Below, in pieces: positions 15,656-40,467 of a stretch of 64,000 bases of DNA. The position numbers were made by a program, and so were the translations under genes. Numbering within the stretch: position 1 is the first letter of the stretch; each line of letters opens with the position of its first letter. The notes under the pieces are model-generated. The model worked only from the letters and a program-made list of their open reading frames with translations, was not told the origin of the DNA and did no database searches. This stretch comes from Candidatus Bathyarchaeota archaeon (GTDB taxonomy: Archaea > Thermoproteota > Bathyarchaeia > Bathyarchaeales > Bathycorpusculaceae): contig JAOZHV010000026.1 of the NCBI GenBank assembly GCA_026014725.1, positions 62,001-126,000 on the forward strand. Direction: 5' to 3'.

Positions 15656-16141
15656 TTGCGAACAATTATTATGGTCTTCATGTTAATCGTCATTGTAAGC
15701 ATCTATGTCTCAACCGTGCAAGCAAAAGATGAGCTCTCAAACATTGAAACCGCTAATGTTCATATTAACCAAGCCTTCGCTAGCGTGTTGGCTGCAGAAA
15801 AAGCAGGGGGAAATGTTACTGACCTATTGCTTGCGTTGAACACTGCGGCAGAATACTTGGCGGCGGCTGAAAACAACTACAGAAGTGGCAATTTAGCAAA
15901 TGTTAATCCTAACGTAGACAGCGCGATCATAATTGCCAACCAAGTTAATAGTGGTGCGCTTGCTTTGCGTGAGACTAGTCTCATTAAATCCCAAGAAAAT
16001 TTCTGGGTAACTTTGACCTTTTCCGTAGTCGGTGCCATTGTTTTTTCATTAGTGCTGGCATTTGTTTGGAGACGCTTCAAACGTTCCTACATGAGCAAAC
16101 TGCTTGATATGAGGCCTGAGGTGGCAGAAGATACACCTTGA
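15656..16141 (+). CDS. Membrane-anchored protein with helical ectodomain
   Basis: The open frame begins at 15623, but TTG 15656 follows GGTGATT at nine bases and gives a clean signal peptide or anchor (residues 1-23, ending STVQA). An external helical domain of about 90 residues follows, with repeated Ala-rich amphipathic helices (NTAAEYLAAAENNY). A second membrane helix (WVTLTFSVVGAIVFSLVLAF) and a short basic tail complete it. Family not recognised. Its 3' end overlaps the next gene by 11 bases if that gene starts at 16131, so the two may be made and may act together. Confidence 0.7.
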   Translation: MRTIIMVFMLIVIVSIYVSTVQAKDELSNIETANVHINQAFASVLAAEKAGGNVTDLLLALNTAAEYLAAAENNYRSGNLANVNPNVDSAIIIANQVNSGALALRETSLIKSQENFWVTLTFSVVGAIVFSLVLAFVWRRFKRSYMSKLLDMRPEVAEDTP

Positions 16142-16724
16142 CAATTACCGCATTATCTTTATTGCCGTCGGCTTGATTGGTGTATTGTTGTTTTCTTGGC
16201 CCACAATTGGTTTAGTAGTAAAACCGCCTGAAGGCGAAGTGTTTTCTGAACTCTACATCCTTGGATCTAATCACATGTTTGATGATATTCCGTTTAACGT
16301 CAAAGCTGGTGTAACCTACTCGATTTACTTGGGTGTAGGTAACCATATGGGGTCATCTTGTTACTACACATGCTTTGTCAAGTTGCGCAATGAGACTGAA
16401 CCTCTTCCCAACACCAAGTCTGGAACGCCAAGTTCCCTGCCTGTTTTGTATGAGTTCAAATCTTTTATTAAAAATGATGAATATTGGGAATCACCTCTAA
16501 CATTCAAAGTTAATCATTTAGTGTTCGCCAATGGTGTCTCTTACTTGTCTGGTATTACTATTAATGAACAAGATTTTCAAGTTAGCACAATCTCTGCATG
16601 GAATACAAACAAAACAGGCTATTACTACAGCCTTTTTGTGGAACTCTGGATATATAATTCTACATCTAATGCTTCTCAATTTCATAATAGGTACGTTAAT
16701 TTAATTCTAAATATGACACAGTAG
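16131..16724 (+). CDS. DUF1616 C-terminal half (ectodomain with one membrane helix)
   Basis: This matches only the C-terminal part of DUF1616 proteins: one membrane helix (IIFIAVGLIGVLLFSWPTIG), then PPEGEVFSELYILGSNH and a beta-rich extracellular domain with VGNHMG and several Asn-linked glycosylation-like sites. The usual N-terminal four-helix half is absent. The first standard start, TTG 16173, falls inside the membrane helix. ATA 16131 has GAGGTG seven bases upstream and would give a complete helix, so I extend the gene to there. The missing N-terminal half has a counterpart at 39577. No catalytic function is known for the family. Confidence 0.72.
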   Translation: MHLDNYRIIFIAVGLIGVLLFSWPTIGLVVKPPEGEVFSELYILGSNHMFDDIPFNVKAGVTYSIYLGVGNHMGSSCYYTCFVKLRNETEPLPNTKSGTPSSLPVLYEFKSFIKNDEYWESPLTFKVNHLVFANGVSYLSGITINEQDFQVSTISAWNTNKTGYYYSLFVELWIYNSTSNASQFHNRYVNLILNMTQ

Positions 16725-16765
16725 GCTTATTTCTAAAATCGACATAGAATTAACTTCTGCGGTTT

Positions 16766-16777
16766 CTTATATATAAC
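16766..16777 (+). promoter_or_regulatory. TATA box at the head of the glycan cassette
   Basis: CTTATATATAAC lies about 45 bp upstream of ATG 16818. A purine-rich SD (GGAGAAAGGAAAAGG) fills the space just before the start. This is the clearest promoter leading into the long rightward glycan run. Confidence 0.6.
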
Positions 16778-16817
16778 GATTCTTTAATTGAGTTAAAGGA
16801 GAAAGGAAAAGGAAAGC

Positions 16818-17579
16818 ATGCAAGAAAAAGAATGGTGCCCAGTAGAACTATATCATGATGCACTGTATAAGTCATCACAACCTATGCAAATTATTCTCGC
16901 GGCGTTGAATGAAGAGCAAGGCATAGCTTACACCATAACCGAGCTTAAGGCATACTTGAATAATCCTCGAATCTTAGTGGTTGATGGCAACAGCCGAGAC
17001 AACACCGTTCATGTTGCCAAGAATTTAGGTGCGGATGTGGTTTTTCAGGAAGGAACCGGAAAAGGAGATGCTATAGGTTTAGGGCTTAAATGCATGGACA
17101 CTAATGTAGAGTATATAGTGTTGAGCGATGCCGATTATACTTATCCTGCCAAGCACATCCCTCAAATGATAAAAATACTGGAGAAAAATCCCAGAATTGG
17201 CATGGTTTGTGGTAACAGATTCAACTCTGAATTCCCACTGACAGGTATGAAAGGAATATTTCATATCGGTAACAAGTTAATAGCGACCGCTCACACGATA
17301 CTAACAGGCATGTCTTTAAACGACCCGTTAACTGGCTTAAGGGTTATTAGAGCAGATCTTCTACGAAACTGGAATCCACTGTCAAAGGATTTTGACATCG
17401 AAGTAGAACTAAATAATTATATTGAAAAAACAGGATTCGAAACTATTGAAATTCCAATAGCTTACCGTCCACGCTTAGGCGAAAAGAAGCTCAAAATGAA
17501 ACATGGGCTCTTAATCTTAAAGAGAATTATTTCTGAAACTTTGAAAAGCAACAACCTATGGACCGAAATACCTCATTGA
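16818..17579 (+). CDS. Family 2 glycosyltransferase, dolichol-phosphate sugar synthase type
   Basis: DPM1/AglJ-like GT-A enzyme (253 residues) that would move a sugar from its nucleotide to dolichol phosphate, starting a lipid-linked glycan. Visible parts are ILAALNEEQGI, VVDGNSRDNT, the divalent-metal motif VLSDADYTYP and DPLTGLRVI. QXXRW is replaced by DFDIEVELNNY in the usual position. There is no C-terminal membrane domain, so it is peripheral. First gene of the cassette, with a strong SD. Confidence 0.87.
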   Translation: MQEKEWCPVELYHDALYKSSQPMQIILAALNEEQGIAYTITELKAYLNNPRILVVDGNSRDNTVHVAKNLGADVVFQEGTGKGDAIGLGLKCMDTNVEYIVLSDADYTYPAKHIPQMIKILEKNPRIGMVCGNRFNSEFPLTGMKGIFHIGNKLIATAHTILTGMSLNDPLTGLRVIRADLLRNWNPLSKDFDIEVELNNYIEKTGFETIEIPIAYRPRLGEKKLKMKHGLLILKRIISETLKSNNLWTEIPH

Positions 17580-17650
17580 TTCTTAATTAATATTTTATGA
17601 AATCGTAAATAATGAAAAATTAAGTGAAGACTGAACTGGAGGAAAATTAA

Positions 17651-18526
17651 ACGAAAATATTATTATCTGGAGCCGCTGGAATGCTCGGGAGTGCTTTATG
17701 CCCAACCTTGATGAAGAGAAAGCATGAAGTGTTTGCGACAGATCTTGCGCCAACGAATGAAACGAAATTCCTTGATGTCCGAAGTTTTAAACAAGTAGAA
17801 GAAATGGTCAGATCCGTCAAACCTGATATTGTTATGCACCTCGCAGCAGAAACAGATGTTGATAAATGCGAAATTGAGCCCGACCATGCTTTTCTAACTA
17901 ATACCATCGGGACTCAAAATGTAAGTATTGTTTGCCAAAAATATAATGTCATAATGGTTTATATTAGCACTATAGGGGTGTTTTACGGGGATAAGATAGA
18001 GCCATATACCGAATTTGATACTCCTAACCCAATAAACATTTATGGTCAGAGCAAACTTGAGGGTGAGAAGATTGTCCAGAGCCTATTAAACCGATATTAT
18101 ATCGTTCGAGCAGGCTGGATGGTTGGGGGTGGTCCTGAAAGGGACAAAAAATTCATAGGCAAAATGATTCGGCAAATGGATAATGGCAAAACTCTGAAAG
18201 CTGTGAATGATAAGATTGGCAGCCCCACTTACACCGTAGATTTTTCCAAATGCCTAGCAGACCTTATTGAAACCGATTACTTTGGTCTTTATCACTGCAC
18301 AAATAAAGGGTATTGTTCAAGGTTCGATGTAGCTAAAAAAATAGTTGAAATTTTTGGGCGGACGGACGTTACTGTTGAGGCAGTAAGTTCTGCATATTTT
18401 CCCTTGCCAGCTGCACGAGCGAGATCCGAGATGTCTAGAAATTATAAGCTTCAGCTTCTTGGTATGGATTCAACTAGAAAATGGGATGACGCCCTCAAAG
18501 ATTACATAAATAGCTCTTGGAAATAA
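17651..18526 (+). CDS. RmlD-like dTDP-4-dehydrorhamnose reductase family protein
   Basis: Short-chain Rossmann reductase of the RmlD type. The nucleotide site is KILLSGAAGMLGSAL, the catalytic YGQSKLEGE (Y-x3-K) follows, and PTYTVDFSKCLADLI is RmlD-like. It would make the final deoxysugar nucleotide. The first ATG (17681) lies inside the glycine-rich loop and cannot be the true start. The frame is closed by TAA at 17648-17650, so the start must be one of the few codons after it. ACG 17651 lies eight bases after a perfect GGAGG (17638-17642). An ACG start or a sequence error are the two readings. Confidence 0.85.
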   Translation, partial: TKILLSGAAGMLGSALCPTLMKRKHEVFATDLAPTNETKFLDVRSFKQVEEMVRSVKPDIVMHLAAETDVDKCEIEPDHAFLTNTIGTQNVSIVCQKYNVIMVYISTIGVFYGDKIEPYTEFDTPNPINIYGQSKLEGEKIVQSLLNRYYIVRAGWMVGGGPERDKKFIGKMIRQMDNGKTLKAVNDKIGSPTYTVDFSKCLADLIETDYFGLYHCTNKGYCSRFDVAKKIVEIFGRTDVTVEAVSSAYFPLPAARARSEMSRNYKLQLLGMDSTRKWDDALKDYINSSWK

Positions 18527-18620
18527 TCCGAGGGTTCATCTATTTGCTAATAATGATTTAGGCTTTACCCAGATAAAGGCACCAAGCATTGATTTTACTC
18601 AAACAATATGTCGTGATATT

Positions 18621-19799
18621 TTGCGAATAGCCTTCTTAGGAACCATGGGAATCCCTGCGCGCTACGGTGGGTTTGAAACCTGCGTAGAAGAAGTTGCTAC
18701 TAGGCTAGCTAAACAAGGGCATGAAATAATAGTGTATTGTGGTTATAGAGGCTCGAAACCGAGAGCTAAAGTTTACAAAGGAGTTAAACTTATCTTTGTT
18801 CCTTGTCTTAACAATAAATTTCTAGACTTTCCATTCCGTTCGCTAATTTCTACGATAGATTTAATGCGAAGAAAGGTACATATTGCTCATTTTTTTGGCT
18901 CTGATGCATGGCCCTTTACTATAGCAACTAGAATGATGTCAATTAAAACTGTCCTGACCTTGGACGGAATGGTTTGGAAAAGATCAAGCTATCCTTGGGT
19001 GATTCGAAAGATTTTACTCATAACAGCTAGGTTTGCTTGTTATTTCCCTAATACAACAATAGTTGACTCAAAGGTCGTTCAACATTGGTATCAACGAAAT
19101 CTCGGTGAAAGACCAACATATGTTCCTTATGGGGCAAACGTTAATCTAAGGAAACCTGATATTGCCAACCTTATTAAAAGAGGATTGGTAGAAAGAAAGT
19201 ATGTACTTTTTGTCGGTAGGTTGGTGAAAGAGAAAGGGGTTCATTACTTGGTTGAGGCTTTTAAAAAAATTAAAACCGACTATACTTTAGTCATCGTTGG
19301 AGCTGACCCATATGGTAAAGAATATGAATTGTACCTCAAAAAAATTTCGGGCAAAAATACTGTGTTTCTAGGCAATGTGTATGGAAGAGAATGTGAGAAT
19401 CTCTATGCTGGCGCTTACCTTTACGTTACGCCTTCAGACCTTGAAGGCACGTCTCCTGCCTTACTTACTGCAATGTCCTTTGGAAAGTGTACCTTAGTTA
19501 GTAATATCCCTGAAAACATGGAAACCATAGGTGACTCTGGGTTCTTTTTTAGGCATGGAAATATTGAAGACTTAAGGCAAAAACTACAGTTACTTCTGGC
19601 TACTCCTACTTTAGTTGATCTTGCGGGCCGGAAAGCAATAAACCGCATTAATGCCTATTATAACTGGGATTTAATTACCGACCAGATTAGGAGGATATAT
19701 TCATCTAATTTACGTTTGAATATCTCGGACAAGATTGACGATTATAAATCCAATTCAAGTGAACAGTTTCAGTATCTAATGGCGCAGGAGAAATCATAA
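18621..19799 (+). CDS. Family 4 glycosyltransferase with DUF1972 N-terminus
   Basis: GT-B enzyme of 392 residues. The N-terminus MRIAFLGTMGIPARYGGFET is typical of DUF1972-type rhamnosyl or related transferases. The C-terminal donor half shows YVLFVGRLVKEKGVHYLVEA and the motif PSDLEGTSPALLTAM with the conserved acidic pair region. Start TTG 18621 has GTGAT a few bases upstream, as in other cassette genes. Predicted to add a sugar to the lipid-linked glycan on the cytoplasmic face. Confidence 0.87.
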   Translation: MRIAFLGTMGIPARYGGFETCVEEVATRLAKQGHEIIVYCGYRGSKPRAKVYKGVKLIFVPCLNNKFLDFPFRSLISTIDLMRRKVHIAHFFGSDAWPFTIATRMMSIKTVLTLDGMVWKRSSYPWVIRKILLITARFACYFPNTTIVDSKVVQHWYQRNLGERPTYVPYGANVNLRKPDIANLIKRGLVERKYVLFVGRLVKEKGVHYLVEAFKKIKTDYTLVIVGADPYGKEYELYLKKISGKNTVFLGNVYGRECENLYAGAYLYVTPSDLEGTSPALLTAMSFGKCTLVSNIPENMETIGDSGFFFRHGNIEDLRQKLQLLLATPTLVDLAGRKAINRINAYYNWDLITDQIRRIYSSNLRLNISDKIDDYKSNSSEQFQYLMAQEKS

Positions 19800-19800
19800 T

Positions 19801-21012
19801 ATAGAAACCTTAAAGTTTCTTTTATGTACAAGTTTTTATCCACCATATCACTTGGGTGGAGATGCTACTCATGTCAAATATCTTGCTGAAGAGCTTGCTA
19901 GAATAGGTCATGAAATTCATGTTATACATAGTATAGACGCTTATCGAGTTAAGCGAAGCAATTCATTTCATGTAAAGGAACCACTTGAAAATAATAATCT
20001 TCACGTACATAGAGTTGAATCAATACCGCACCAAAAAGATCCTGCTCTTGCTTATGTATTTGGGCATTGTTTTTCGGTTGAAAGAAAGTTTGACCAGGTA
20101 ATCCTGAGAGAGCGCCCAGAAATTGTCCATTATCATAATATCTCGCTTTTAGGTTATTCTATAATGAAAAAAAAAGGAAATTATCTCTCCCTTTATACTG
20201 CACATGATTATTGGCTTATTTGCCAGATGAACAACCTTGTTAGAAATAATCTGACTCACTGCGTTCGAAAACAATGTTATTCATGTGCTTTGTCTTGGAA
20301 ACGTTTTCCTCAATTTTGGCGTCGAACTAACGATTTTAAGCAGATTATTTTCAACATAGATCTCTTAATATCCCCCAGTGATTACGTTCGGAAAAGGCTT
20401 TTGCAGGAAGTTCATCTCAATAGTTGTACTCTTCCTAATTTTGCCCCAAAACCGCCGGAGAATATTCCTAAAACAGACTTTTCAAACTACTTTCTTTTTG
20501 TTGGAATGCTTGAAGAACACAAAGGGATTCTATCGCTTCTGGATGTTTTCAAAACGATTAAAAATGATTTAAAGGCAAGTTTGTTAATCGTTGGAGGCGG
20601 GAGCCTTGAAACAATTGTTCGGAATTACATTGAAAAGAACTCCCTTGGTGATAGAGTACATTTCTTAGGTTTTGTTAACTATCATCAGCTTTATTCTTTA
20701 TATTCGAATGCTTTGGCGTTGATAGTTCCGTCAATTTGGCCTGAGAATGCTCCGCTAGTAGCGTTGGAAGCACTTTCTGTTGGTACTCCTGTGATAGCTT
20801 CTAACAAAGGAGGGTTACCCGAGATTGTGAGGAAAGTTGACAAGATATTGATCTTTAATGATAACGATCAACTTAAAACAATTTTATTGTCTTTCTCAAG
20901 GCAAGCTTACCCTGTTGAAAAAATTAAGTCTGTTTACAAAAAGAACTACTCGCCTGAAGCATATATCGAGAGATATTTGAAAGCAATAAAAATGTTAACT
21001 GTTAGAAAATAA
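19801..21012 (+). CDS. Family 4 glycosyltransferase
   Basis: GT-B glycosyltransferase, about 403 residues. The acceptor-side half begins KFLLCTSFYPPYHLGGDATH. The first standard start codon (TTG 19852) would cut this conserved strand off. There is no ATG/GTG/TTG between the previous stop (19797-19799) and that point. ATA 19801 is the most likely start, ten bases after AGGAG (19786-19790). The donor half has LFVGMLEEHKGI and SIWPENAPLVALEALSVGTP, the normal GT4 signature. A cysteine-containing insert (CVRKQCYSCALSW) around residues 145-157 is unusual and may bind metal. Confidence 0.85.
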   Translation: METLKFLLCTSFYPPYHLGGDATHVKYLAEELARIGHEIHVIHSIDAYRVKRSNSFHVKEPLENNNLHVHRVESIPHQKDPALAYVFGHCFSVERKFDQVILRERPEIVHYHNISLLGYSIMKKKGNYLSLYTAHDYWLICQMNNLVRNNLTHCVRKQCYSCALSWKRFPQFWRRTNDFKQIIFNIDLLISPSDYVRKRLLQEVHLNSCTLPNFAPKPPENIPKTDFSNYFLFVGMLEEHKGILSLLDVFKTIKNDLKASLLIVGGGSLETIVRNYIEKNSLGDRVHFLGFVNYHQLYSLYSNALALIVPSIWPENAPLVALEALSVGTPVIASNKGGLPEIVRKVDKILIFNDNDQLKTILLSFSRQAYPVEKIKSVYKKNYSPEAYIERYLKAIKMLTVRK

Positions 21013-21029
21013 AGTAGTGATTTTTTACT

Positions 21030-22232
21030 GTGAGCAAAGAAAATATCTCTTATAAGCTTTCAGTACTATGGTTAAGCTTTACAATGATGGATTCAGATCT
21101 TCATAAAACAGCTTTTGAAAATATTCTTGAAAATCTCGTGAAATTAGGAAATAAAGTCTCGCTGATGGCGATTCGAACAAGATTACCCTATAAGAATAAA
21201 TATGGGAATAAAAAACCGTCTATAAGGATCACAGTTATACCTATAAGATATTTTCCGCTTATTTCTATAGCAATTTTCACAGTATTACAATCTATCTTGC
21301 TTCCTTTTTATCTGCTTGCAAAAAAGATAAAATTCGTTATCTATGACCCTGATATGCATATTTTGAGCAGTTTTGTAGTTCTTGGTCTTTGTAAATTTAC
21401 CAAAACAAAACTAGTTTTGGATGTGCGAAGTACTCCGGTAGAGACTCATGGAGTCCGTGGCTATCTCAAAAAGTTTTGGTTTTCTTGTTCGATTCTGATT
21501 GCTAAACGTTTGTTTGATGGAATTACAATTATCACTCCGTTAATGAAGCATGAAATCTGCAATGATTATGGTCTTGATCCTGACAAGATTGGTGTTTGGA
21601 CGTCGGGAGTATCTGAGTCTCTTTTTGATCCACTTGCATTTAAAGGCGATGCCCTGAGAAGAAAGTTAGGTCTTAAAAATAGATTTATTATTTTGTACCA
21701 TGGAGTATTCACTCCTACTAGGGCATTAATAGAGACAATACAATCCCTGAAATTATTAATTCCAAAATATCCTGACATTCTTTTGTTTCTTTTGGGTTCT
21801 GGGCCTTCGTTAGGTAGCTTAGAATTGGCTGTTCAAAACGAGCACCTTGAAAAGCATGTTATTATTTCGAAACCGGTTGCTCCATCCAAAGTTCCCGAGT
21901 TCATTAGCATGTGTGATGTCGGTATTATTCCTTTACCCAATCATCCATATTGGCGTTTCCAAAGTCCGCTTAAACTCTTTGAGTATTTGGCTATGGAAAA
22001 AGTGGTTGTTCTGACGGATATTCCTGCTCATCGGACCGTGATTGGTACAGCTAACTGCGGAATATATGTTTCATCTGTCCATCCAAAAGACTTGGCAGAG
22101 GGCATAGAAAAAGCTTATTTAAACAAGGAAGTGCTGAAAATCTCTGGGCAAATTGGAAGAAATTTAGTAAAGCAGAAATACACGTGGGCTAAGGTTTCGG
22201 AAGATTTAGAAAGATATTTATGCACTTTATGA
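21030..22232 (+). CDS. Family 4-like glycosyltransferase
   Basis: GT-B enzyme of 400 residues starting at GTG 21030, with GTGATTTT upstream as SD. Residues 68-90 form a hydrophobic helix that likely docks on the membrane. The donor half shows FIILYHGVFTPTRALIETI and CDVGIIPLPNHPYWRFQSPL followed by FEYLAMEKVVV, a pattern common in glycan clusters. It lies 17 bp after the previous transferase and is probably cotranscribed. Confidence 0.83.
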   Translation: MSKENISYKLSVLWLSFTMMDSDLHKTAFENILENLVKLGNKVSLMAIRTRLPYKNKYGNKKPSIRITVIPIRYFPLISIAIFTVLQSILLPFYLLAKKIKFVIYDPDMHILSSFVVLGLCKFTKTKLVLDVRSTPVETHGVRGYLKKFWFSCSILIAKRLFDGITIITPLMKHEICNDYGLDPDKIGVWTSGVSESLFDPLAFKGDALRRKLGLKNRFIILYHGVFTPTRALIETIQSLKLLIPKYPDILLFLLGSGPSLGSLELAVQNEHLEKHVIISKPVAPSKVPEFISMCDVGIIPLPNHPYWRFQSPLKLFEYLAMEKVVVLTDIPAHRTVIGTANCGIYVSSVHPKDLAEGIEKAYLNKEVLKISGQIGRNLVKQKYTWAKVSEDLERYLCTL

Positions 22233-22281
22233 TACACCTTTGTGTGAATGTTAAGTATTTCAACATGTAATTCACTGAAGA

Positions 22282-22291
22282 TTTATATATA
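22282..22291 (+). promoter_or_regulatory. TATA box before the secreted protein at 22316
   Basis: TTTATATATA lies 25-34 bp before TTG 22316. That spacing predicts a nearly leaderless transcript, separate from the upstream transferase run. Confidence 0.5.
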
Positions 22292-22315
22292 TCAACACCC
22301 ATTTGTAAAAGGGGG

Positions 22316-23074
22316 TTGTATGGTATCATAAGGATTGCGATAGCGGGGCGCCATAAAAAGGCATATGTTGTTCTCTTACTTATGATGCTAGCAAATTACC
22401 CGATTTTCCTCTCACCTGCGAATGCCCAGTTCTCTGCCCAAGTTCAAATAAATTCTACCGGCACTATCGTTATTCCAACTCCAACCCCTACTCCAACACC
22501 CACTCCTTCCGCAACTAACTTGGCACGCATTCCCAACGATTTTGAATTAACATATGGAAATGGTCCACAAATCATATTTCTCGATTATAATGTCGTTAGA
22601 ACGGCTGGAAAGCCAAGCATACGCCTTGAACCTCACACTTCTCTTGATGTAAACGTGGCAAGGGAAGTTGATGGTAAATGGTACACTGTAAATCCTGGGG
22701 ACCATATTGTCGCAAAGTGTTGGATGAGAGTCCTGACTAATTCGTCTACTCTGGGTTATCCTCAGTGTGGAGCGCGAATCGGCATAGATTTTTATGGTTA
22801 TGTTAATGGCGTATTTACGATGTTGCCTGCCGATGCTTTCTGGTATAATTATTATGGCGGAGATTTTTCAAAAATGTACGTTTGTGATAGCAATGGTGGA
22901 GCGTGGCAGCAAAAAACAATAGATATTATTGTTCCTGCGACTGCAACTGATTCAGCCGGCAATGTTGGCATAGTTACTATGTTTGTGCTGTGGCTTCAAG
23001 GTGCCCCTTGGATACAACACAGTACGGCTAGCGCCGTTTGGTTCGCTGATGCAGAACTATACATTAATCCTTAG
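22316..23074 (+). CDS. Secreted protein with Pro-Thr linker
   Basis: A signal peptide at residues 17-37 ends in SPANAQ. A short beta strand (VQINSTGTI) comes next, then a Pro-Thr repeat linker (residues 54-64). A C-terminal beta-rich domain of about 185 residues rich in aromatic residues follows, resembling a carbohydrate-binding jelly roll. No catalytic motif is evident. The strand after the signal peptide resembles the same region in the two paralogous secreted proteins at 14114 and 42501. Likely cell-surface or exported; it may bind the glycan the cassette makes. TTG 22316 directly follows a run of G, so a later start is possible. Confidence 0.72.
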   Translation: MYGIIRIAIAGRHKKAYVVLLLMMLANYPIFLSPANAQFSAQVQINSTGTIVIPTPTPTPTPTPSATNLARIPNDFELTYGNGPQIIFLDYNVVRTAGKPSIRLEPHTSLDVNVAREVDGKWYTVNPGDHIVAKCWMRVLTNSSTLGYPQCGARIGIDFYGYVNGVFTMLPADAFWYNYYGGDFSKMYVCDSNGGAWQQKTIDIIVPATATDSAGNVGIVTMFVLWLQGAPWIQHSTASAVWFADAELYINP

Positions 23075-23146
23075 TGTTTTTGCGTTTTTATATTAAATAC
23101 TCATAGTATTCTTTTTTCCTTTGCAGTTTCTCATAAGGTGGCGCTG

Positions 23147-24736
23147 TTGAAAAAAAACAAACTAGCAGTTTTACCACTTTTAGTCGGCATAGCTTTTTTG
23201 ATTTATTCATGGTTTGAAAGCTATCCGTTATCAATTGATTATCCTGGAGATTTTGTTTTTAATCACATATCCTTTTTTTATTGGCTTAGTCTTCCATTAA
23301 TATTAGGATCTCTGTACGTACTAGGAGTATTTTCGAAAAATCACTCTTTCAAATGCCTTGTGTCAATTGCAGTAATCCTGACAATATATTCAATCTCTTT
23401 CTTTTACTCCTCGATGCCTACCGCCGATTCACAATTTTTCAGAGGGCTAACTGAATATTTTTTAAATACAAACAAATTGGATGCTTCTTACATATCTCAT
23501 TATTATTATCAATGGCCATCTTATTTTCTTCTGGCTGGCACTGTAACTTCTTTAAGTGGATTAAATGTTATTGGCTTCGAATTTTTGTTCTACGCTATAA
23601 TCGGTGTTTTGCTATCAATGACTTTGTATATTTATGCTTCCAAATACTTTAAAAATGGTGCGTTTTTTGCCGTAATTTCCTTTTTTATTTCAATGTATTG
23701 GTTCCTGAATTATCAGAGTGTTCCTTTTTCATTTGCTCTCGCGTTAACTTTTCTTTTGTTTATGTTTGAACTCCAAAAAAAGAGTGCTCCTGCTTTATTA
23801 ATAATACTTGTACTATTTTTTTGTATATCATTTACCCATTTTTTTGTGAGTTTATTTTTCATTTTTTATCTGATTCTTCGGAGCATCATCGGTAGAAGCA
23901 AACAATATGCAAAGCTCTCCTTAATGACCCTAACCATTTATTTGGTAACACAGCTCTCGTTTACTTCTTGGAATTGGATTAAATTTAATCTTGGGCTTTT
24001 GGTAAACTCGTCTCCAGAATACGGTGTAATTGTTGAAACAACTTTAAAACCGATTATAATCCCGTTTGATATATTGGCTCAGAATATTTCAAGAACAGTT
24101 ACAATTGTGACTATTGCAATTTGTTTATTTAGTTACGTTTTTCTCGTAATTAAGCGGAAGTTCAGGGTCGTTGACACAGCTATTCTTCTTTCTGGTTTAG
24201 CTTATTTGGCTCTGGGTTTTATTTTTTATACCTTGGGCTCGCGAGCTCTCACTATATTTTTCATACCTATATGTTTGGGAGTTGCTTTTTTATTTGAAAC
24301 TAAATTCCGGATTTACATAAAAGGCATATTTTTAGTTTTATTGGTTCTTTGGGTTTTTGTGCCTATTCATACCTCGTATAATTCGTATATTGGTGAGTTT
24401 ATCCCATTCCAAACTTATGAGGTTTCTAATGCTGAAAACTTCCTTGTAAATCACTATAACTGGACGACTCCAGGTCTAATGCTTGTACATGCTCCTATTA
24501 GAGTTTATTTATCATCAGTTTTAGATCCAACACAGGTTAAAACAACGTTTCCAGAGGATATTTCCTCCGTTCTTTTTCCTGAGCCAAAAGAATATAATGG
24601 TATATTTTACACTGTTGGTCTTGGAAATGACTTTTTAATTTATAACTATACATTAGATGAACTTGTCTCTGAAGGGCAACTAAGTGTTTTGTACACTAAC
24701 GGCTTGTCTGAAATAGCAATAAAGAGTTCAAAATAG
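23147..24736 (+). CDS. Polytopic membrane protein, probable GT-C-type glycosyltransferase
   Basis: About 530 residues with roughly 11-13 membrane helices and a C-terminal external domain of about 120 residues. After the second or third helix a loop carries SSMPTADSQFFRG; an acidic residue in such a loop is typical of GT-C enzymes, which use dolichol-phosphate sugars outside the membrane. The frame opens at GTG 23138, but TTG 23147 with AAGGTGG five bases upstream fits better. It is also conceivable that it is a polymerase-like protein. Neighbours are all glycan genes. Confidence 0.68.
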   Translation: MKKNKLAVLPLLVGIAFLIYSWFESYPLSIDYPGDFVFNHISFFYWLSLPLILGSLYVLGVFSKNHSFKCLVSIAVILTIYSISFFYSSMPTADSQFFRGLTEYFLNTNKLDASYISHYYYQWPSYFLLAGTVTSLSGLNVIGFEFLFYAIIGVLLSMTLYIYASKYFKNGAFFAVISFFISMYWFLNYQSVPFSFALALTFLLFMFELQKKSAPALLIILVLFFCISFTHFFVSLFFIFYLILRSIIGRSKQYAKLSLMTLTIYLVTQLSFTSWNWIKFNLGLLVNSSPEYGVIVETTLKPIIIPFDILAQNISRTVTIVTIAICLFSYVFLVIKRKFRVVDTAILLSGLAYLALGFIFYTLGSRALTIFFIPICLGVAFLFETKFRIYIKGIFLVLLVLWVFVPIHTSYNSYIGEFIPFQTYEVSNAENFLVNHYNWTTPGLMLVHAPIRVYLSSVLDPTQVKTTFPEDISSVLFPEPKEYNGIFYTVGLGNDFLIYNYTLDELVSEGQLSVLYTNGLSEIAIKSSK

Positions 24737-24786
24737 CTTGAAGATTAGAGATCGTGATTGAGGAGCTTATGTGAGGTTGGAACTCA

Positions 24787-26061: not shown

Positions 26062-26197
26062 AATTGGCTAAAAGTAGATATTAGCTTTTCTAAAATGTGG
26101 GTAGATAGATAATCAAATATTTGATTTAAGAAATAATAAAGAGAAAATTACACGAAAAAATTCAAATTGAGTAAACAGATTTCGGAGGAAATACTTC

Positions 26198-28253: not shown

Positions 28254-28260
28254 TAATATA

Positions 28261-29439: not shown

Positions 29440-29447
29440 CTGATTCC

Positions 29448-30485: not shown

Positions 30486-30531
30486 CTCCTTAAATTTCGG
30501 TTCAAAAATAATATAAAAAAGTGATTATAAA

Positions 30532-32950: not shown

Positions 32951-33148
32951 ATTGAAGAGGATGACCATTTTTTTTTTTAAAAAAAATCAAATGTAATACA
33001 TTTTCAGTACATATGGCTCTCTCTTAAAAAGGGGCATTTAAGGGATAGTTCCATATCACTTACCTTGAACGCAACCTTAATCTTCAGAGGATGAATTACC
33101 TAATTAAATTAACGATCAATTACACAGATAGCGTTTGGAGGGGAAAGT
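32951..33148. other. Intergenic gap with T/A-run inverted repeat and SD
   Basis: This 198-bp gap begins with a run of T followed at once by a run of A (about 32968-32986), which can fold on itself and may end transcription. The middle holds AT-rich DNA with possible TATA sequences (AATTAAATTAAC near 33105). It ends in the strong SD GGAGGGG at 33137-33143 used by the next gene. I see no ORF or RNA gene here. Confidence 0.4.
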
Positions 33149-34393
33149 ATCAAAAAAATTGGTTCGCCTGCTTGTAGGTTCTGTGGAGCTCCATTAAAAC
33201 ATACATTTGTCGATTTGGGGATGCAACCCCTCTGCGAAAGCTATGTAAAAGCAGAGCAACTAAATCATATGGAACCTTTCTATCCGTTGCATGTAAGAGT
33301 TTGCGATCAATGTTTTTTAGTCCAACTGGAAGAATATGTTTCTCCCAAAGAAATTTTTTGTGAGTATGCGTATTTTTCATCCTACTCAGAAGCATGGTTA
33401 AATCATGCCCAAGCTTACGTTGATATGATTGTTAAAAGGTTGTCTCTTAATAAAGATAGCCTTGTTGTCGAGGTTGCTAGCAACGATGGTTATCTTCTTC
33501 AATATTTTGCAAAGTATGGTGTCCCCGTCTTAGGGATTGAACCAGCGGCAAACGTAGCTGAAGTAGCAATAAAGAAAGGTATTCCTACAGTTGTTGATTT
33601 CTTCAATTTAGAAATCGCTAATGCTCTTTTTAAGAAAGGTCAAAGTGCCGATTTGATTATCGGAAATAATGTTCTTGCTCAAGTAACGGACCTCAACGGA
33701 TTCGTAGAGAGCATGAAGGTATTGCTCAAATCGTCGGGTGTGATAACCATGGAGTTTCCTCACTTAATGAATCTTGTTGCGGAAAATCAATTTGACACTA
33801 TTTATCACGAACATTTTTCATATTTTTCATTGCTAACGGTCGAAAAAATTTTTGCTGCGCATGGTTTAACTATATTTGATGTAGACAGGCTAAGCACACA
33901 TGGAGGCTCTTTGCGTATTTATGCTTGCCATAGCGAAGATTCTTCAAAGCCTGTTAAGAAATCGGTATTGGATTTAAGAGAAACAGAGCAACAGCAAGGT
34001 TACGATAGTTTGGATATTTATTTTACGTTTTCTGAAAGAGTGAGGGCAACGAAGAGGAATCTTTTAGATTTTCTAATTAGATTAAAGCGTGAGAAAAAGA
34101 CAATTGCCGGTTATGGTGCACCAGGTAAAGGTAATACCCTTCTTAATTATTGCGGAATTCGTTCAGATTTTTTGGATTATACTGTTGACCGGAACCCTTA
34201 CAAACAAGGTAAGTTCTTGCCAGGAACCCATATCCCAATTTACAGTCCTGAAAAGATCGCTAAGACAAAACCTGATTACATCTTTATTTTACCTTGGAAT
34301 ATTAAAGATGAAATAATTAACCAGTTAGCTTATGTTAAGGCGTGGGGTGCTAAATTTATAGTTCCCATTCCAGAAGTCAAAGTTTATGAGTAG
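33149..34393 (+). CDS. Sugar C-methyltransferase, TylCIII-like
   Basis: This family methylates a carbon of 4-keto nucleotide sugars to make branched deoxysugars. The N-terminal zinc domain is CRFCGAPLKHTF with VCDQC further on. The SAM part is VVEVASNDGYLLQYF. The family active-site block is TIYHEHFSYFS, and the C-terminal domain has GYGAPGKGNTLLNY and KQGKFLPGTHIPI. The first ATG-type codon (TTG or ATG near 33212) falls after the zinc Cys pair, so it cannot be the true start. No ATG/GTG/TTG occurs back to the stop at 33110. ATC 33149 lies seven bases after GGAGG and is the likely start. About 414 residues, the normal family length. Confidence 0.87.
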   Translation: MKKIGSPACRFCGAPLKHTFVDLGMQPLCESYVKAEQLNHMEPFYPLHVRVCDQCFLVQLEEYVSPKEIFCEYAYFSSYSEAWLNHAQAYVDMIVKRLSLNKDSLVVEVASNDGYLLQYFAKYGVPVLGIEPAANVAEVAIKKGIPTVVDFFNLEIANALFKKGQSADLIIGNNVLAQVTDLNGFVESMKVLLKSSGVITMEFPHLMNLVAENQFDTIYHEHFSYFSLLTVEKIFAAHGLTIFDVDRLSTHGGSLRIYACHSEDSSKPVKKSVLDLRETEQQQGYDSLDIYFTFSERVRATKRNLLDFLIRLKREKKTIAGYGAPGKGNTLLNYCGIRSDFLDYTVDRNPYKQGKFLPGTHIPIYSPEKIAKTKPDYIFILPWNIKDEIINQLAYVKAWGAKFIVPIPEVKVYE

Positions 34394-34429
34394 TAACAAA
34401 CAAATATTACAAATTGAGAGGGTTGGTGG

Positions 34430-35218
34430 ATGAAAGTAGTTCTTTTTTGCGGTGGTTTGGGCATGCGTTTGCATCCAACCACAGAATTAGTTCCTAAACC
34501 TTTAGTTCCAGTTGGAGAGAAACCTATACTTTGGCATATGATGAAGTATTATTCTCACTTTGGTCATAATGATTTTATTCTTTGTTTAGGCTACAAAGGG
34601 GAGCGTATTAAACGATATTTTCTAGATTATGATGAATGCCTTTCCAGTGATTTTGTTCTATCAAATGGTGGTAGAGATCGCAAGTTAATTGAAAAGAATA
34701 CTGATAATTGGAGAATAACTTTTGTAGATACTGGTTTATATTCAAATATCGGTCAAAGATTAAAAGCGGTACAAAAACATCTTGATGGCCAGGATATGTT
34801 TCTAGCTAATTATAGCGATGGGTTAACTGATCTAAATCTACCAAAATACATAGAATATTTCATCAAAAAAAATAAAATAGGTTGCCTTTTAACAGTAAAG
34901 CCTTTTCATTCATATCATGCAATAACATCAAGAAAAAACGGTTTAGTTTCAAACATAACGCCTCTAGTAAGTTCTGATATACGAATAAACGGTGGATATT
35001 TTATTTTTAAAAATCAAATATTCGATTACATAGGCAACGGTGAGGATCTGGTTGATGAACCATTTAAACGACTCATAGCGAAAAAAGAACTTGTAGCATA
35101 TAATTATGATGGTTTTTGGGCAAATATGGATAATTATAAAGATAAACAGCAACTTGATGAGTGGGCTGGAAATGGTAATGCTAAATGGCAAGTATGGTTA
35201 ACAAAAAGCCAAGGTTAG
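34430..35218 (+). CDS. rfbF: Glucose-1-phosphate cytidylyltransferase-like protein
   Basis: Nucleotidyltransferase of 262 residues. The N-terminal CGGLGMRLHPTTELVPKPLV holds the nucleotide-binding Gly/Arg/Lys set. RfbF-like features are PILWHMMKYYSHFGHNDFIL, the metal-site region FLANYSDGLTDL, and GFWANMDNYKDKQQLDE near the end. It would make CDP-glucose, the entry to CDP-deoxysugars. A specificity change to another nucleotide cannot be ruled out. A strong SD (GAGAGGGTTGG) precedes ATG 34430. It follows the C-methyltransferase by 36 bp. Confidence 0.87.
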   Translation: MKVVLFCGGLGMRLHPTTELVPKPLVPVGEKPILWHMMKYYSHFGHNDFILCLGYKGERIKRYFLDYDECLSSDFVLSNGGRDRKLIEKNTDNWRITFVDTGLYSNIGQRLKAVQKHLDGQDMFLANYSDGLTDLNLPKYIEYFIKKNKIGCLLTVKPFHSYHAITSRKNGLVSNITPLVSSDIRINGGYFIFKNQIFDYIGNGEDLVDEPFKRLIAKKELVAYNYDGFWANMDNYKDKQQLDEWAGNGNAKWQVWLTKSQG

Positions 35219-35228
35219 GTAAAAGTGT

Positions 35229-35873
35229 TTGTTGACTATTAATTTTAATCTTCCAGAGAAACCAAAAATCCTTTGCTTAGGTGCCCATCCTGACGATATT
35301 GAAATCGGTTGTGGAGGTACTCTTCTTAGGTTAATCGAAGAAATACCTGATTCTGACTTTTACTGGGTTGTTTTTAGCGGCAATAAACAGAGACAAAAAG
35401 AGGCCAATGCAAGCGCAGAATGTTTATTGAAAGGTTTGTCAAAAAGAATTATTATAGGCAATTTTCGTGAGTCGTATTTTCCTTATATTGGTGCCTCAAT
35501 TAAAGATGATTTTGAGCTCCTCAAAAAGGAGCTTTCTCCTGATTTGATATTTACCCATTACCAGAAAGATGCACATCAAGATCACCGCTTGATATCTGAG
35601 CTTACTTGGAACACCTTTCGTAATCATTTAATTCTAGAGTATGAAGTTCCCAAGTATGAGGGTGATTTAAGAACCCCTAATCTGTATGTTCATCTTAATG
35701 AATCACAAGCAAGTCTGAAAATTAATCATATTCTCCAATTTTTTAAATCTCAAACTGAAAAAAATTGGTTTACTGCCGACTCGTTTAAGGCGCTTCTAAG
35801 AGTTCGTGGAATTGAATGTAATTCTCGCGGACAATATGCAGAAGGGTTCCATTGCCATAAGCTGGTCTTTTAA
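35229..35873 (+). CDS. PIG-L family deacetylase
   Basis: Zinc-dependent N-acetyl-sugar deacetylase family, 214 residues. The metal motif is LGAHPDDIEIGCGGTL near residue 17, and the third ligand region is HYQKDAHQDHRLISE. It would remove an acetyl group from an amino sugar in the glycan or its precursor. It starts eleven bases after the cytidylyltransferase, so the two are probably cotranscribed. A tandem TTG-TTG leaves the exact start open by one codon. Confidence 0.85.
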   Translation: MLTINFNLPEKPKILCLGAHPDDIEIGCGGTLLRLIEEIPDSDFYWVVFSGNKQRQKEANASAECLLKGLSKRIIIGNFRESYFPYIGASIKDDFELLKKELSPDLIFTHYQKDAHQDHRLISELTWNTFRNHLILEYEVPKYEGDLRTPNLYVHLNESQASLKINHILQFFKSQTEKNWFTADSFKALLRVRGIECNSRGQYAEGFHCHKLVF

Positions 35874-35967
35874 TCATTTATCGGAGTCCAATTTTAAAGC
35901 GTACTAAGTAGTTAAGCCACTGTTTGATAACACTTTTCCTTTAAACAAAAAATGTTGTATTAGGTGA

Positions 35968-37263
35968 GTGATTGCTATTTCAAGAAATGACAACAAACAT
36001 ATAGTTGCTATTGTAGGCACAGATACTATTTCATCTACTGTTTCACCAACCGCTTCAGTAGCTATTATCCATTGTAACTTATCAAAACAGTTATCTCAAA
36101 AATATATTGTGCATGTTTACTCTCAACGGGGAAGCAATCAGGTTGAGATGAGTTTAGACGGACTGGTTAAGCATCATCATATTTCTAGTAGGTTTGATTA
36201 TTTAACAAGATATTTTATTTCAGTAGTTGCAAAACAAATAACAAAATTTACACAAGTTTTTTCCAGAAAGCCATTTTATTTATCTCTTTTTAATGATTTT
36301 GTTTATGCTCTCCGAACGGCCAAAAGCATTAAAGTTGAAAAATGCAACATAGTTCAAATTGCTGAAGAAACCCAACTGATACCTTTTATAAAAATGATAA
36401 ATCCTAAGACTAAAATCGTTTTATCAATGCACAGTGAATTGTTGACTCAACTCGATAGAAAAACAATGACTAATAGGCTTAAGCAAGTTGATTTTATAAT
36501 TGGATGTAGCGATCATGTAACTAAGAAAATCGTTAAATGCTTTCCTCAGTTTAGTATCAAATGTCAAACGATTAATAATGGGGTTAATATAAAACTCTTC
36601 AAACCTTTAGAAAATAAACTTGCGTCTAAAAGAATTTTGTATGTTAGCAGGGTGACACCAGAAAAAGGTTTGCATGTTCTTATCGAAGCTTTAGCTCGAG
36701 TGGTTGAGATATTTCCCGAAACACATCTAAATGTTATTGGTTCAAAAGTAATGTGGTTACCTGAATATTTTATTAATCTGAGTGAGGAACCAAAAGTAAA
36801 AGAGCTACTATCGTTTCATGCTAAGGGACGGTCAGGTTATCTAGATTACCTGCAAGAAAGAATTTTGGAGCTTAATCTTACAAATAATGTTACTTTCCAC
36901 GGTGTTATTCCTCATGAGAATTTAATTTCATATTATCAGAATTCTGACCTGTTCGTTCTTCCTTCCTTTAGTGAAGCGTTTGGTATGGGCTTAATTGAAG
37001 CTATGGCCTGCGGATTGCCTGTGGTAGCTACCGACGTTGGTGGAATTCCAGAAGTAGTTGAGCAAGGAAAAACTGGATTATTGGTTGAATCCGGTGATTC
37101 GGGCGCTCTTGCTAAAGCTATTTTAGATATTTTTTCAGACGGTAAAATGAGAATTAGGATGAGTGAAGCAGCACGAAAGCGTGCTGTAAAGCTATTTTCT
37201 TGGGAAAAGATTGCAAATGATGTCTCTCAAATTTACGAGTCTTTAACAAAGTTTGATAATTAA
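35968..37263 (+). CDS. Family 4 glycosyltransferase
   Basis: GT-B enzyme of 431 residues with a full donor lobe: RILYVSRVTPEKGLHVLIEA, NNVTFHGVIPHENLISYYQN and PSFSEAFGMGLIEAMACGLP, with the E-x7-E retaining motif. The acceptor lobe begins HIVAIVGTDTISSTVSPTAS. GTG 35968 sits inside AGGTGAGTG, so the exact start is uncertain by a few codons. The 94-bp upstream gap is AT-rich with no other feature. Confidence 0.87.
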   Translation: MIAISRNDNKHIVAIVGTDTISSTVSPTASVAIIHCNLSKQLSQKYIVHVYSQRGSNQVEMSLDGLVKHHHISSRFDYLTRYFISVVAKQITKFTQVFSRKPFYLSLFNDFVYALRTAKSIKVEKCNIVQIAEETQLIPFIKMINPKTKIVLSMHSELLTQLDRKTMTNRLKQVDFIIGCSDHVTKKIVKCFPQFSIKCQTINNGVNIKLFKPLENKLASKRILYVSRVTPEKGLHVLIEALARVVEIFPETHLNVIGSKVMWLPEYFINLSEEPKVKELLSFHAKGRSGYLDYLQERILELNLTNNVTFHGVIPHENLISYYQNSDLFVLPSFSEAFGMGLIEAMACGLPVVATDVGGIPEVVEQGKTGLLVESGDSGALAKAILDIFSDGKMRIRMSEAARKRAVKLFSWEKIANDVSQIYESLTKFDN

Positions 37264-37277
37264 ACGTTATAGACTAT

Positions 37278-38126
37278 TTGTATATTATAAGTTTGTTAAC
37301 TTGGATGTTGTATATGAATATTCTTCGATTTAGACTACTAAAGTTATACAAGCTTATACTAAGCAACCGTACGAGAAATAATAATATAGAGTCTATCAAA
37401 AAATGTATAGTAGTCTTTGCTCCTCATCCTGATGATGAGACGCTTGGTTGTGGTGGAACTATTTTAAAGCAAATTAGAGCAGGTTCCCAAGTTAAGATAG
37501 TTTTTATGACTGATGGAGCAAATTCTCACTCACACATAATTTCTTCTGAAAAGCTTGGGCTTATCCGTGCTCAGGAGGCAATCGCTGCAGGTAAGAAACT
37601 TGAGGTGAGTGAAAGTAACCTTATTTTTCTCGGTTACCGAGATAGTGATTTATGTCGAGATATTAATGACGCTGTTAAAAAAGTTCAATTGATTCTTAAA
37701 GAGTCACAACCTGATGAAATCTTTATCCCTCATGAGAAAGAACCAATAACAAATGATCATTTTGCCACTCATAGAATAGTTTCATTAGCTTTGAAAAACT
37801 ATAAAAAAAGAGTGATTGTATCAGAATATCCTGTCTGGCTTTATTATCATTTTCCTTGGGTTCAATTTCAAGCCAAAGACGCTTTAGGCTGTCTAAAGCA
37901 TATGTTTTTTTCAAGTTTTCATTTAATAGTGGATTTCCGCTTTTCGGTCTATGTTGGTGATGTGATTAGCCTCAAACGGTTGGCGTTGCAAGAGCATAGG
38001 TCTCAAATTACCCGTCTTTTTCCTCATCCACGTTGGCAAACGTTAGGCGATTTATCAAACGGCGAGTTTTTGGAATGTTTCTTTCAAGATTATGAGCTTT
38101 TTAATCGATACGTACTTAATAAATAA
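37278..38126 (+). CDS. PIG-L family deacetylase
   Basis: Second PIG-L protein of the cassette, 282 residues. The metal motif is VFAPHPDDETLGCGGTIL, then VFMTDGANSHSH and IPHEKEPITNDHFATHRIV. The sequence differs clearly from the first PIG-L, so they probably act on different substrates. The frame opens at TTG 37278. ATG 37314 is an in-frame alternative that still leaves the whole domain. Its stop lies just before an aldo/keto reductase scrap, marking a recombination scar. Confidence 0.84.
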   Translation: MYIISLLTWMLYMNILRFRLLKLYKLILSNRTRNNNIESIKKCIVVFAPHPDDETLGCGGTILKQIRAGSQVKIVFMTDGANSHSHIISSEKLGLIRAQEAIAAGKKLEVSESNLIFLGYRDSDLCRDINDAVKKVQLILKESQPDEIFIPHEKEPITNDHFATHRIVSLALKNYKKRVIVSEYPVWLYYHFPWVQFQAKDALGCLKHMFFSSFHLIVDFRFSVYVGDVISLKRLALQEHRSQITRLFPHPRWQTLGDLSNGEFLECFFQDYELFNRYVLNK

Positions 38127-38130
38127 TATT

Positions 38131-38244
38131 TTGAAATTAACTAGCAAAGAATATGGAAAAACTAAAGCTCAAATAGCCCTTAACTGGTTAATTGCTCAGG
38201 ATAATATTATTGCCATACCAAAAGCGGTCTCGGTTGACGACTTA
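38131..38244 (+). pseudogene. Aldo/keto reductase remnant
   Basis: About 38 codons match the C-terminal part of aldo/keto reductases: KEYGKTKAQIALNWLIAQDN then IIAIPKAVSVDDL. The full protein would have about 280 residues and the rest is absent. Upstream the frame runs straight into the PIG-L coding end, and after DDL the family similarity stops. Nothing suggests it makes a working enzyme. It is a leftover from gene loss or from the join at this edge of the cassette. Confidence 0.7.
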
Positions 38245-38320
38245 GTTCACTTGCCTTTGAAAGACTCACTGAGAGCTATATACTCGTTTCACCATTTTAA
38301 AGTTAAATGGAAGCGAAAAA

Positions 38321-39535
38321 ATGGTTTCTATTGGCACAAAAGCATCCAAACCTTGTCCATTATGCGGAGAAGACAAATCGATAATCTTTTTTGAAATGCA
38401 CAATATCCCTTGTAATTGCAATCTCCTTTGGCAAACCAGAGAGGAAGCCATCAATTGCCCCAAGGGCGATTTAACATTAGGATATTGCCCTTCTTGTACG
38501 TTTATTGCCAACTACACCTTACAACCTGAAAAAAATCAGTATATAGGCCAATATGACAATTCACTTTATCACTCCCATTTGTTTCAGTATTTTGCGAAAA
38601 ATAAAGTTCAAAGTTTAATTGATAAGTATAATTTGCATGGTAAAACTGTTATGGAAGCGACAGTTGGTAAGGTTGATTTTTTATCCTTTTTCTGTTCTTT
38701 GGGTTCAAATAAGGGGATAAAATTCGATACTTCTTTCATCAATTCTTTAGAAGGCTCTAAAAAAGATATCATACCTGTTGATTATAATAGTTTAACTGAG
38801 GATAGCGATTCAGGCAGAGCTAACAATGAGCCAGTAGACTTTGTTTTCTCCTACCATGAACTTGAACACGCAAATTCACCAAGGCACTTTCTAAATATAT
38901 TAAAAGAAAGGATAGGGAAGAACTCTGAGACCATTTTCTATATTTCTGTACCACATATTATTAAAGCATTTCATGAGGGTGATTTCACCGACGTAATATA
39001 TGAACATCCGTCTTATTTTACCAGTTCAGCTCTATTACTTCTCTTTACCTCTTGTGGCTATAATATAATAGATATTCGAGAGGAAACAGGTGTTTTCTCT
39101 AGTTCATTAAGCGTCGTTGCTTCGTTGAATAAAGACTTGTTTCCAAAATTTGATAAAAATCATGAGTTAGAACCTATAGAAAAAGCAACATCAGAATTTG
39201 GTATTAAAACAAAAATGCTGATGACAAACGCTACTCGCAATATCAAGCATCTGCTAGATCAAGGTAAGCGAATAGTTATGTGGGGTGCAGGAGCAAGGGG
39301 GGTCACACTTCTAAACATATTCAAGGATGATAGAATCAAGTACGTAATTGATATAAACCCAAGCAAACAAGGGAAGTTCCTTCCAGGTACAGCACAAAAA
39401 ATAATGGCGCCTGATTTCTTGGTAACCTATAAACCTGATTATGTTTTTATTGCAAACTCGGTTTACAAAGAAGAAATTGCAAAGCTATTAAGAGATTTAA
39501 ATGTCAAAAGCGAGCTATTGACACTTACCGATTGA
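38321..39535 (+). CDS. C-methyltransferase-like protein with weakened SAM site
   Basis: Paralogue of the enzyme at 33149, 404 residues. Zinc ligands are in PCPLCGEDKS and LGYCPSC. The C-terminal domain has VMWGAGARGVTLLN and KQGKFLPGTAQKI, matching the other copy. The SAM loop is VMEATVGKVDFLSFF in place of the expected glycine/Asn-Asp pattern, and the YHEHFSYFS-like block is IYEHPSYFTS. It may have changed function or lost methylation activity. It is the last gene of the cassette before the DUF1616 protein. Confidence 0.78.
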   Translation: MVSIGTKASKPCPLCGEDKSIIFFEMHNIPCNCNLLWQTREEAINCPKGDLTLGYCPSCTFIANYTLQPEKNQYIGQYDNSLYHSHLFQYFAKNKVQSLIDKYNLHGKTVMEATVGKVDFLSFFCSLGSNKGIKFDTSFINSLEGSKKDIIPVDYNSLTEDSDSGRANNEPVDFVFSYHELEHANSPRHFLNILKERIGKNSETIFYISVPHIIKAFHEGDFTDVIYEHPSYFTSSALLLLFTSCGYNIIDIREETGVFSSSLSVVASLNKDLFPKFDKNHELEPIEKATSEFGIKTKMLMTNATRNIKHLLDQGKRIVMWGAGARGVTLLNIFKDDRIKYVIDINPSKQGKFLPGTAQKIMAPDFLVTYKPDYVFIANSVYKEEIAKLLRDLNVKSELLTLTD

Positions 39536-39576
39536 TAAGATATCAAGTAAAATTAAAAGCGCTGATTTAGGTAAGC

Positions 39577-40467
39577 TTGGTTGACTTGACTGAAACCGAA
39601 AAAAATGATGCTGACAGACTTAGTAAAGCAATCTTAAGGATTGTTAATGATCAGAAACCAGATACGATGAGGCAACTAGTATATCTTGTCTCCAAAGAGA
39701 CTGGTGTTGCAGAAGAAAAGATTGTTACTGTAATCCAAAAATTGGAAGATGAGAAAAAAATTGAATTTGCTGAATTATTATTTCCGCAGGCTCTCAATGA
39801 ATACGTTTTCTCCTTTAGAGGAACATGGTTTTGGTTGACGATTAGTCTTTTAATAGTTGCAACCTTTTCAATTTTTATGATTCCTGAAAACTTTTTCCCT
39901 TTAAGTTATATACGTAACTTTTTTGGGCTTCTCTTTGTTTTGTATTTACCTGGGTATTCGTTAATCAAGACTCTTTATCCGATAAGTGTGCCTTTAAAAA
40001 CGAGCTCCTTAACTTTAGACTCAATTGAACGTATAGTATTAAGTTTAGGCTTAAGTTTAGCAGTTACTCCAATAGTGGGTTTGATGCTTTACTATACACC
40101 TTGGGGTCTAGGCCTTACGCCCATTACATTGAGTCTTCTTTTTGTAATTGCTGTTTTTGCTACGTTAGGGGTTTTGCGTGAATATCAAGCAAGGAAAGCC
40201 TTGTTTTTGAAAAGGGTTATAGCTGTAACTGAATACGAGCTTGCTGATAACATTCTTAGGTTCTTTGCTACTCAGGGATTTGTGAAAAAACGGCGAGTTA
40301 TAGTTAAGGAGATACTTGTTGCTGGGATAACCGCCATAGATAGTCATGATAATGAATTAAGTGTTACACATAATGGTGTTACCAACATTTTTTTAATGAG
40401 TAACGCTAAATCATGTAGCAGTTTACGTGATAAAATGCGGGATATGATAGTTGATGGAACAAAGTAA
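39577..40467 (+). CDS. DUF1616 N-terminal membrane half fused to a PH-like domain
   Basis: A 296-residue protein in three parts. Residues 1-65 are helical and HTH-like (DADRLSKAILRIVNDQKPDT). Residues 85-210 match the four-helix N-terminal half of DUF1616 (YLPGYSLIKTLYP, SIERIVLSLGLSLAVTPIVG, YYTPWGLGLTP). The normal DUF1616 ectodomain is missing; instead residues 215-290 form a PH-like domain (RVIAVTEYELADNILRFFA, then GVTNIFLMSNA). That domain recurs in the next gene. The missing ectodomain half occurs at 16131. TTG 39577 has AGGT upstream. The gene overlaps the next by 17 bases. Confidence 0.75.
   Translation: MVDLTETEKNDADRLSKAILRIVNDQKPDTMRQLVYLVSKETGVAEEKIVTVIQKLEDEKKIEFAELLFPQALNEYVFSFRGTWFWLTISLLIVATFSIFMIPENFFPLSYIRNFFGLLFVLYLPGYSLIKTLYPISVPLKTSSLTLDSIERIVLSLGLSLAVTPIVGLMLYYTPWGLGLTPITLSLLFVIAVFATLGVLREYQARKALFLKRVIAVTEYELADNILRFFATQGFVKKRRVIVKEILVAGITAIDSHDNELSVTHNGVTNIFLMSNAKSCSSLRDKMRDMIVDGTK

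Follow-up and report, generated by a model that had tools for sequence, protein, structure and literature searches.

The 64,000-nt stretch of Bathyarchaeota DNA analysed here (the window; contig C26:62001-126000 of a 2.56-Mb assembly) carries two genes of DUF1616, a family that has no known function and is named by a single paper in the literature searched. The two genes lie at opposite sides of a cassette of glycan genes, and the gene that matches the later part of the family profile comes first. This raises the question of how the order came about. In the original prediction it was attributed to recombination between two DUF1616 copies, for example by exchange of cassettes between tandem DUF1616 boundaries, or to a circular intermediate. 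The analysis of the window and of related genomes gave a different answer: the reversed order most probably reflects an old gene order of the subfamily, and an origin from intact DUF1616 genes, whether by insertion or by recombination, is not supported.

Two DUF1616 halves and the cassette between them

The left gene (16131..16724, + strand), here called the C-half, matches PF07760 over profile positions 155-272 (E 2.6e-12) and encodes one TM helix and an extracellular beta-sandwich. The right gene (39577..40467, + strand), the N-half, matches positions 4-121 (E 4.8e-25) and combines a cytoplasmic winged helix, the DUF1616 membrane part and an extra C-terminal domain. Both exceed the curated PF07760 cut-off of 31.6 bits (46.9 bits for the left and 88.8 bits for the right gene), and each represents one half of the family, the full-length N-C architecture being present in neither protein. 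By Pfam profile coordinates the halves are complementary, split at one loop and placed in C-then-N order, which bears out the predicted layout of two reversed halves on the + strand around a glycan cassette. The start codon of the C-half is uncertain; the open frame runs from ATA at 16131, and the first standard start is TTG at 16173. In the N-half the winged-helix domain at the N-terminus comprises about 70 aa and the C-terminal domain about 80 aa. The latter, an extension absent from the nearest N-halves, is copied with 43% identity over 91 aa (BLASTP, E 2e-21) in the N-terminal domain of the next gene (40451..41365, + strand), which overlaps the N-half gene and has no Pfam family.

The C-half gene is located directly 3′ of a gene for a coil-TM protein (15623..16141, + strand), consisting of a helical region outside the membrane and a membrane anchor. 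This gene belongs with the C-half as its partner; a homologue preceded the C-half in 21 of the 25 loci that were examined, frequently together with two further genes of a conserved left-border module. One of these encodes an HTH_45 winged-helix protein (15238..15567, + strand; Pfam HTH_45, E 5.5e-20) that is conserved upstream of C-half genes and is likely a regulator. The other encodes u154 (14724..15188, + strand), an unknown protein with homologues upstream of the HTH45, coil-TM and C-half genes in the relatives G060, G062, G063, G073, G136, G145, G135 and G074 and likewise in two further clusters of the window's own genome. On the other side, preN261, a membrane protein of about 260 aa, recurs upstream of the N-half in 13 of the 25 loci. 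Two related secreted Ig-like proteins (14006-14566 and 42037-42501) are encoded one on each side of the bracket formed by the two halves, and homologues recur beside other brackets, e.g. in loci L042, L064, L069 and L095.

The cassette itself (16818..39535, + strand) comprises 20 co-directional genes, which according to a Pfam scan encode mostly GT2 and GT4 glycosyltransferases, methyltransferases, epimerases, PIG-L deacetylases and a nucleotidyltransferase. Its GC content is about 0.36, compared with 0.42-0.43 in the flanks. In relatives the genes between the halves code for GT2 and GT4 glycosyltransferases, methyltransferases, polysaccharide pyruvyl transferases, FrhB-like and Gfo/Idh/MocA proteins and flippases. 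With a shared gene defined by 40% identity and 70% coverage, the median number of genes shared between two brackets was 0, and nothing was shared in 67 of 105 pairs. Constant border genes around a variable interior were thus found in related genomes, in line with the expectation that relatives would hold different cassettes between the same borders.

Structure models were obtained for both halves. The AlphaFold model of the C-half (pLDDT 90.5) showed a TM helix and an all-beta sandwich, for which Foldseek returned generic beta-sandwich matches only, namely to arrestin-like and GH3 sandwich domains. For the N-half, the AlphaFold model of a homologue (L037:17398-18021; pLDDT 86.8) began with a small winged helix and continued in membrane helices, without a convincing fold match to the PDB in Foldseek. 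A PDB sequence search with both halves returned nothing useful.

Gene order and lineage of the halves in relatives

For the bracket-type halves, alignments were built (C-half, A1 and A8; N-half, A2 and A9) and searched against genomes of the family (91) and of the taxonomic order (163). A bracket-type C-half was located upstream of the N-half, on the same strand and within 60 kb, for 16 of 29 N-halves, with gaps of 8.3 to 33 kb; the reverse order was observed once (G136, 30 kb). One N-half (G127) had its nearest C-half 208 kb away on the opposite strand, and the remaining 11 were alone on their contigs, many of them near contig ends. Among linked pairs the order seen in the window, which is included in the count, is therefore commoner than chance would give (16 loci against 1 reversed). 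The 16 loci come from 15 genomes, 9 genera and 3 families; since an order of genes may be passed on by descent or transferred as a block, this is no count of independent origins. The C-then-N order around variable genes is an old and stable arrangement.

The arrangement has exceptions. N-halves without a linked C-half were found on long contigs of G086, G124 and G127. The C-half is the commoner of the two, and in a class sample of 251 genomes its bracket type was almost confined to this taxonomic order. Clusters led by a C-half but without a bracket-type N-half occur on long contigs (a second cluster on the window's contig, G089 and G074), so that the N subunit is either not always needed or replaced; besides the bracket, the window's own genome holds two such C-led clusters in all, C26:152.7k (the one on the window's contig) and C33:2.2k. 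Exosortase, flippase or other related genes are found beyond the N-half in at least nine loci, and in some loci glycan genes also lie left of the C-half, which means that the halves are not strict ends.

Separate halves were the commonest form of DUF1616 in 61 genomes of relatives, and a half gene is for that reason not by itself a broken gene. The seven DUF1616 matches of the window's own genome consist of one intact gene (C22:277454) and otherwise of N-only and C-only genes. A further type of pair, with an N-half of about 135 aa and a C-half of about 190 aa that are not adjacent, was noted at G000:C22:114178-114525 (L055) and G000:C49:80121-80480 (L056), and occurs about once each in many members of the genus.

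Domain trees were calculated for 39 N-halves and 39 C-halves together with intact haloarchaeal and methanogen proteins. Both trees agree in resolving three groups, the intact, the divergent plus permuted, and the bracket-type sequences, and the intact genes split off with support of 100/98 and 100/96 in the two trees. Branching inside the bracket group was poorly resolved. Over 15 pairs, the identity distances of C-halves are correlated with those of N-halves (Mantel r 0.55, p 1.5e-4), an effect to which common rates or the history of the species may contribute, and C-half distances correlate similarly with those of the neighbouring coil-TM protein. The agreeing trees and correlated distances indicate that the halves are of the same lineage and have long been separated from intact DUF1616; whether the two come from one family member had been proposed as a point to check, and a common lineage is upheld. 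Each half moreover has extra domains or partners missing from intact copies, the winged helix and a C-half insertion of roughly 40 aa being without counterpart there. Both genes of the window are old and complete, and they belong to a single lineage of DUF1616.

These results bear directly on an origin of the permuted halves by recombination between two intact DUF1616 genes, or by integration of a circular cassette into one. Such an origin would fit the complementary halves with their split at one loop, the AT-rich cassette, the differences between cassettes and their different chromosomal places, and the weak integrase-like remnant beside a tRNA-Ala gene about 2 kb to the right. It is contradicted, however, by the separate clade of the intact genes in both trees, by the winged helix and C-half insertion that intact copies lack, by the same order in three families and in 16 of 17 linked pairs, and by the lack of long border repeats and of a second tRNA end. 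Intact genes of the bracket type, which the prediction had expected at the borders in relatives, were found at none of them. The permuted form that exists as a single gene in three genomes also speaks against such an origin. For the window, recombination between intact genes is thus largely refuted and is regarded as very improbable. The prediction had counted against itself the case of stable, ancient and separate forms unrelated to cassette borders; stable, ancient and separate they proved to be, but not unrelated to the borders.

The chromosomal surroundings were also inspected. In the interval 42976-43471 a possible C-terminal fragment of a tyrosine integrase (Phage_integrase E 0.015, below the cut-off) lies directly beside tRNA-Ala(CGC). 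Integration of an island at this tRNA-Ala (43396-43471) was considered and rejected, as neither a second copy of the tRNA end nor long border repeats were found. The right-flank block (LeuRS to 48.7 kb), in which three genes to the left of LeuRS are included, is shared with the genus mates G006, G013, G011, G007, G015, G024 and G025. The LeuRS of the window is most similar to records of Candidatus Bathyarchaeota and Bathycorpusculum. In none of these seven is a bracket found beside the block, and the sequence to its left differs, so that they offer no clean empty site. Relatives of the N-half gene were not found in virus contigs. Close to the glycan cluster there is an Orc1/Cdc6-type gene (45871-47091); in Haloferax, too, an Orc1/Cdc6 gene has been reported next to glycosylation clusters of variable content (PMC5867893).

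Divergent, permuted and exosortase-linked forms

Besides the brackets, adjacent and divergent C and N genes were found in G003, G007, G015, G022 and G025 and, by coordinates, also in G086, G087 and G089. The C protein of such pairs carries a fused coil-TM part, and the divergent pair that was examined in detail (G015) adjoins FtsX/MacB, DUF4350 and DUF58 genes. Three genomes of another family (G044, G143, G149) contain a single ORF of 485-518 aa in which the C-half ectodomain is followed by a coil, a TM segment, a winged-helix-like region and the N-half. A search with hmmscan gave two DUF1616 stretches in these ORFs, with the N part at the protein end. They are naturally permuted DUF1616 proteins with the C-then-N order of the brackets. 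Since the coil stands before C in the brackets but after C in the fusion, neither form is a simple derivative of the other. Such a permutation, occurring in nature within a family of membrane proteins, is useful for testing ideas on membrane topology and on how subunits assemble. Two DUF2206 membrane proteins of about 700 aa showed a weak N-terminal match to the N part of DUF1616 (L057:11819-13924, E 0.009; L060:13425-15620, E 4e-4); judged from these sequence matches, DUF1616-N may also be a module of larger membrane proteins.

The locus type is also linked to an exosortase at the level of genomes. An exosortase of 707 aa with an EpsI-like (DUF3485) part is encoded directly after the N-half in G025:C21, and in about a dozen loci this long exosortase (the 700-aa form) is encoded close to a bracket-type N-half. 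Among the 91 family genomes, a bracket-type C-half is present in 25 of 26 genomes with the 700-aa exosortase and in 22 of 65 without it (Fisher p 1.8e-8, not corrected for kinship). The 700-aa form scores below every named NCBIfam subfamily cut-off and matches the general signature TIGR04178 only; the gene at L043:1190-3313 is a member of this Bathyarchaeota exosortase-EpsI fusion family without a named NCBIfam subfamily. Fusions of EpsH with EpsI and EPS neighbourhoods are known in bacteria (PMC1569441). While an exosortase is found in the locus in many relatives, the window locus has none, and the window genome lacks the 700-aa form, with only two shorter family members elsewhere.

A proposed surface complex and its known counterparts

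The most probable explanation, to which a probability of about 70% is assigned, is that the products of the two genes are the subunits of one split DUF1616 complex, encoded in fixed C-then-N order towards both sides of Bathyarchaeota surface-glycan loci. The coil-TM protein and the C-half would display helical and beta-sandwich domains outside the membrane, and the N-half would form the membrane core with its cytoplasmic winged helix. The complex would serve a step common to all cassettes, such as assembling, exporting or attaching the finished glycan or exosortase-sorted proteins, with the genes between the halves determining which glycan is made. The homologues are all uncharacterised, and this biochemical role is deduced from neighbourhood and fusions. 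Against the explanation count the C-led clusters and the N-halves that lack a linked partner, the related genes beyond the borders and the absence of the 700-aa exosortase from the window genome. Ectodomain, coil-TM, winged helix and membrane part, which are fused or linked again and again, define a testable complex, and the fixed order can serve as a simple marker when genomes of uncultured Bathyarchaeota are searched for surface-glycan loci.

A membrane-bound sensor, in which ectodomain and coil sense the surface and the winged helix of the N-half regulates the cluster, would account for this cytoplasmic domain and for the HTH_45 gene in the left module. However, the winged helix of the N-half has an acidic third helix (mean net charge of -1.8 in 14 sequences), unlike a DNA-reading helix, which speaks against DNA reading, and the domain is missing from the called ORF in 4 of 18 N-halves. 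A sensor is accordingly considered improbable.

Compatible with the preferred two-subunit explanation, but a further claim, is a role of the borders in exchange. The left module (u154, HTH45, coil-TM and C genes) and the N gene might act as homologous arms for cassette swaps between strains, in the manner of the genes flanking bacterial O-antigen and capsule loci. The conserved border genes with almost entirely different interiors and the presence of several such clusters per genome agree with this, whereas the border proteins share about 41-43% amino-acid identity between sampled species and are too diverged for homologous recombination; such exchange is regarded as rather unlikely. The widest reading would take DUF1616 in all its forms (intact, split, divergent and permuted) as a two-subunit surface machine, with the Bathyarchaeota genes as constant bookends for exchange of exosortase-linked glycan cassettes, and is put forward as an unlikely speculation.

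Several known systems resemble the split complex proposed here. Intact DUF1616 proteins of haloarchaea and methanogens, e.g. HVO_2173 of Haloferax volcanii, which was found to be N-glycosylated (PMC8241124), likewise combine a membrane N part with an extracellular C part, and the intact copy of the window's own genome also lies among glycosyltransferase genes. In contrast to the split form, they are single genes in N-C order without winged helix or coil-TM part, and they form a separate clade in both trees. Bacterial exosortase/EpsH-EpsI loci (the PEP-CTERM system) similarly have glycan biosynthesis genes around an exosortase to which an EpsI-like domain is fused; to our knowledge, neither a DUF1616 pair nor a coil-TM gene occurs in them. 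They differ also in that the Bathyarchaeota 700-aa form has no named subfamily and the window genome does not encode it. Bacterial O-antigen and capsule loci combine constant border genes with variable glycan genes. Alternative glycosylation clusters of Haloferax likewise have constant neighbours and variable glycan genes (PMC5867893). Unlike in these loci and clusters, the constant genes in Bathyarchaeota are the two halves of one split family, kept in a fixed C-then-N order.
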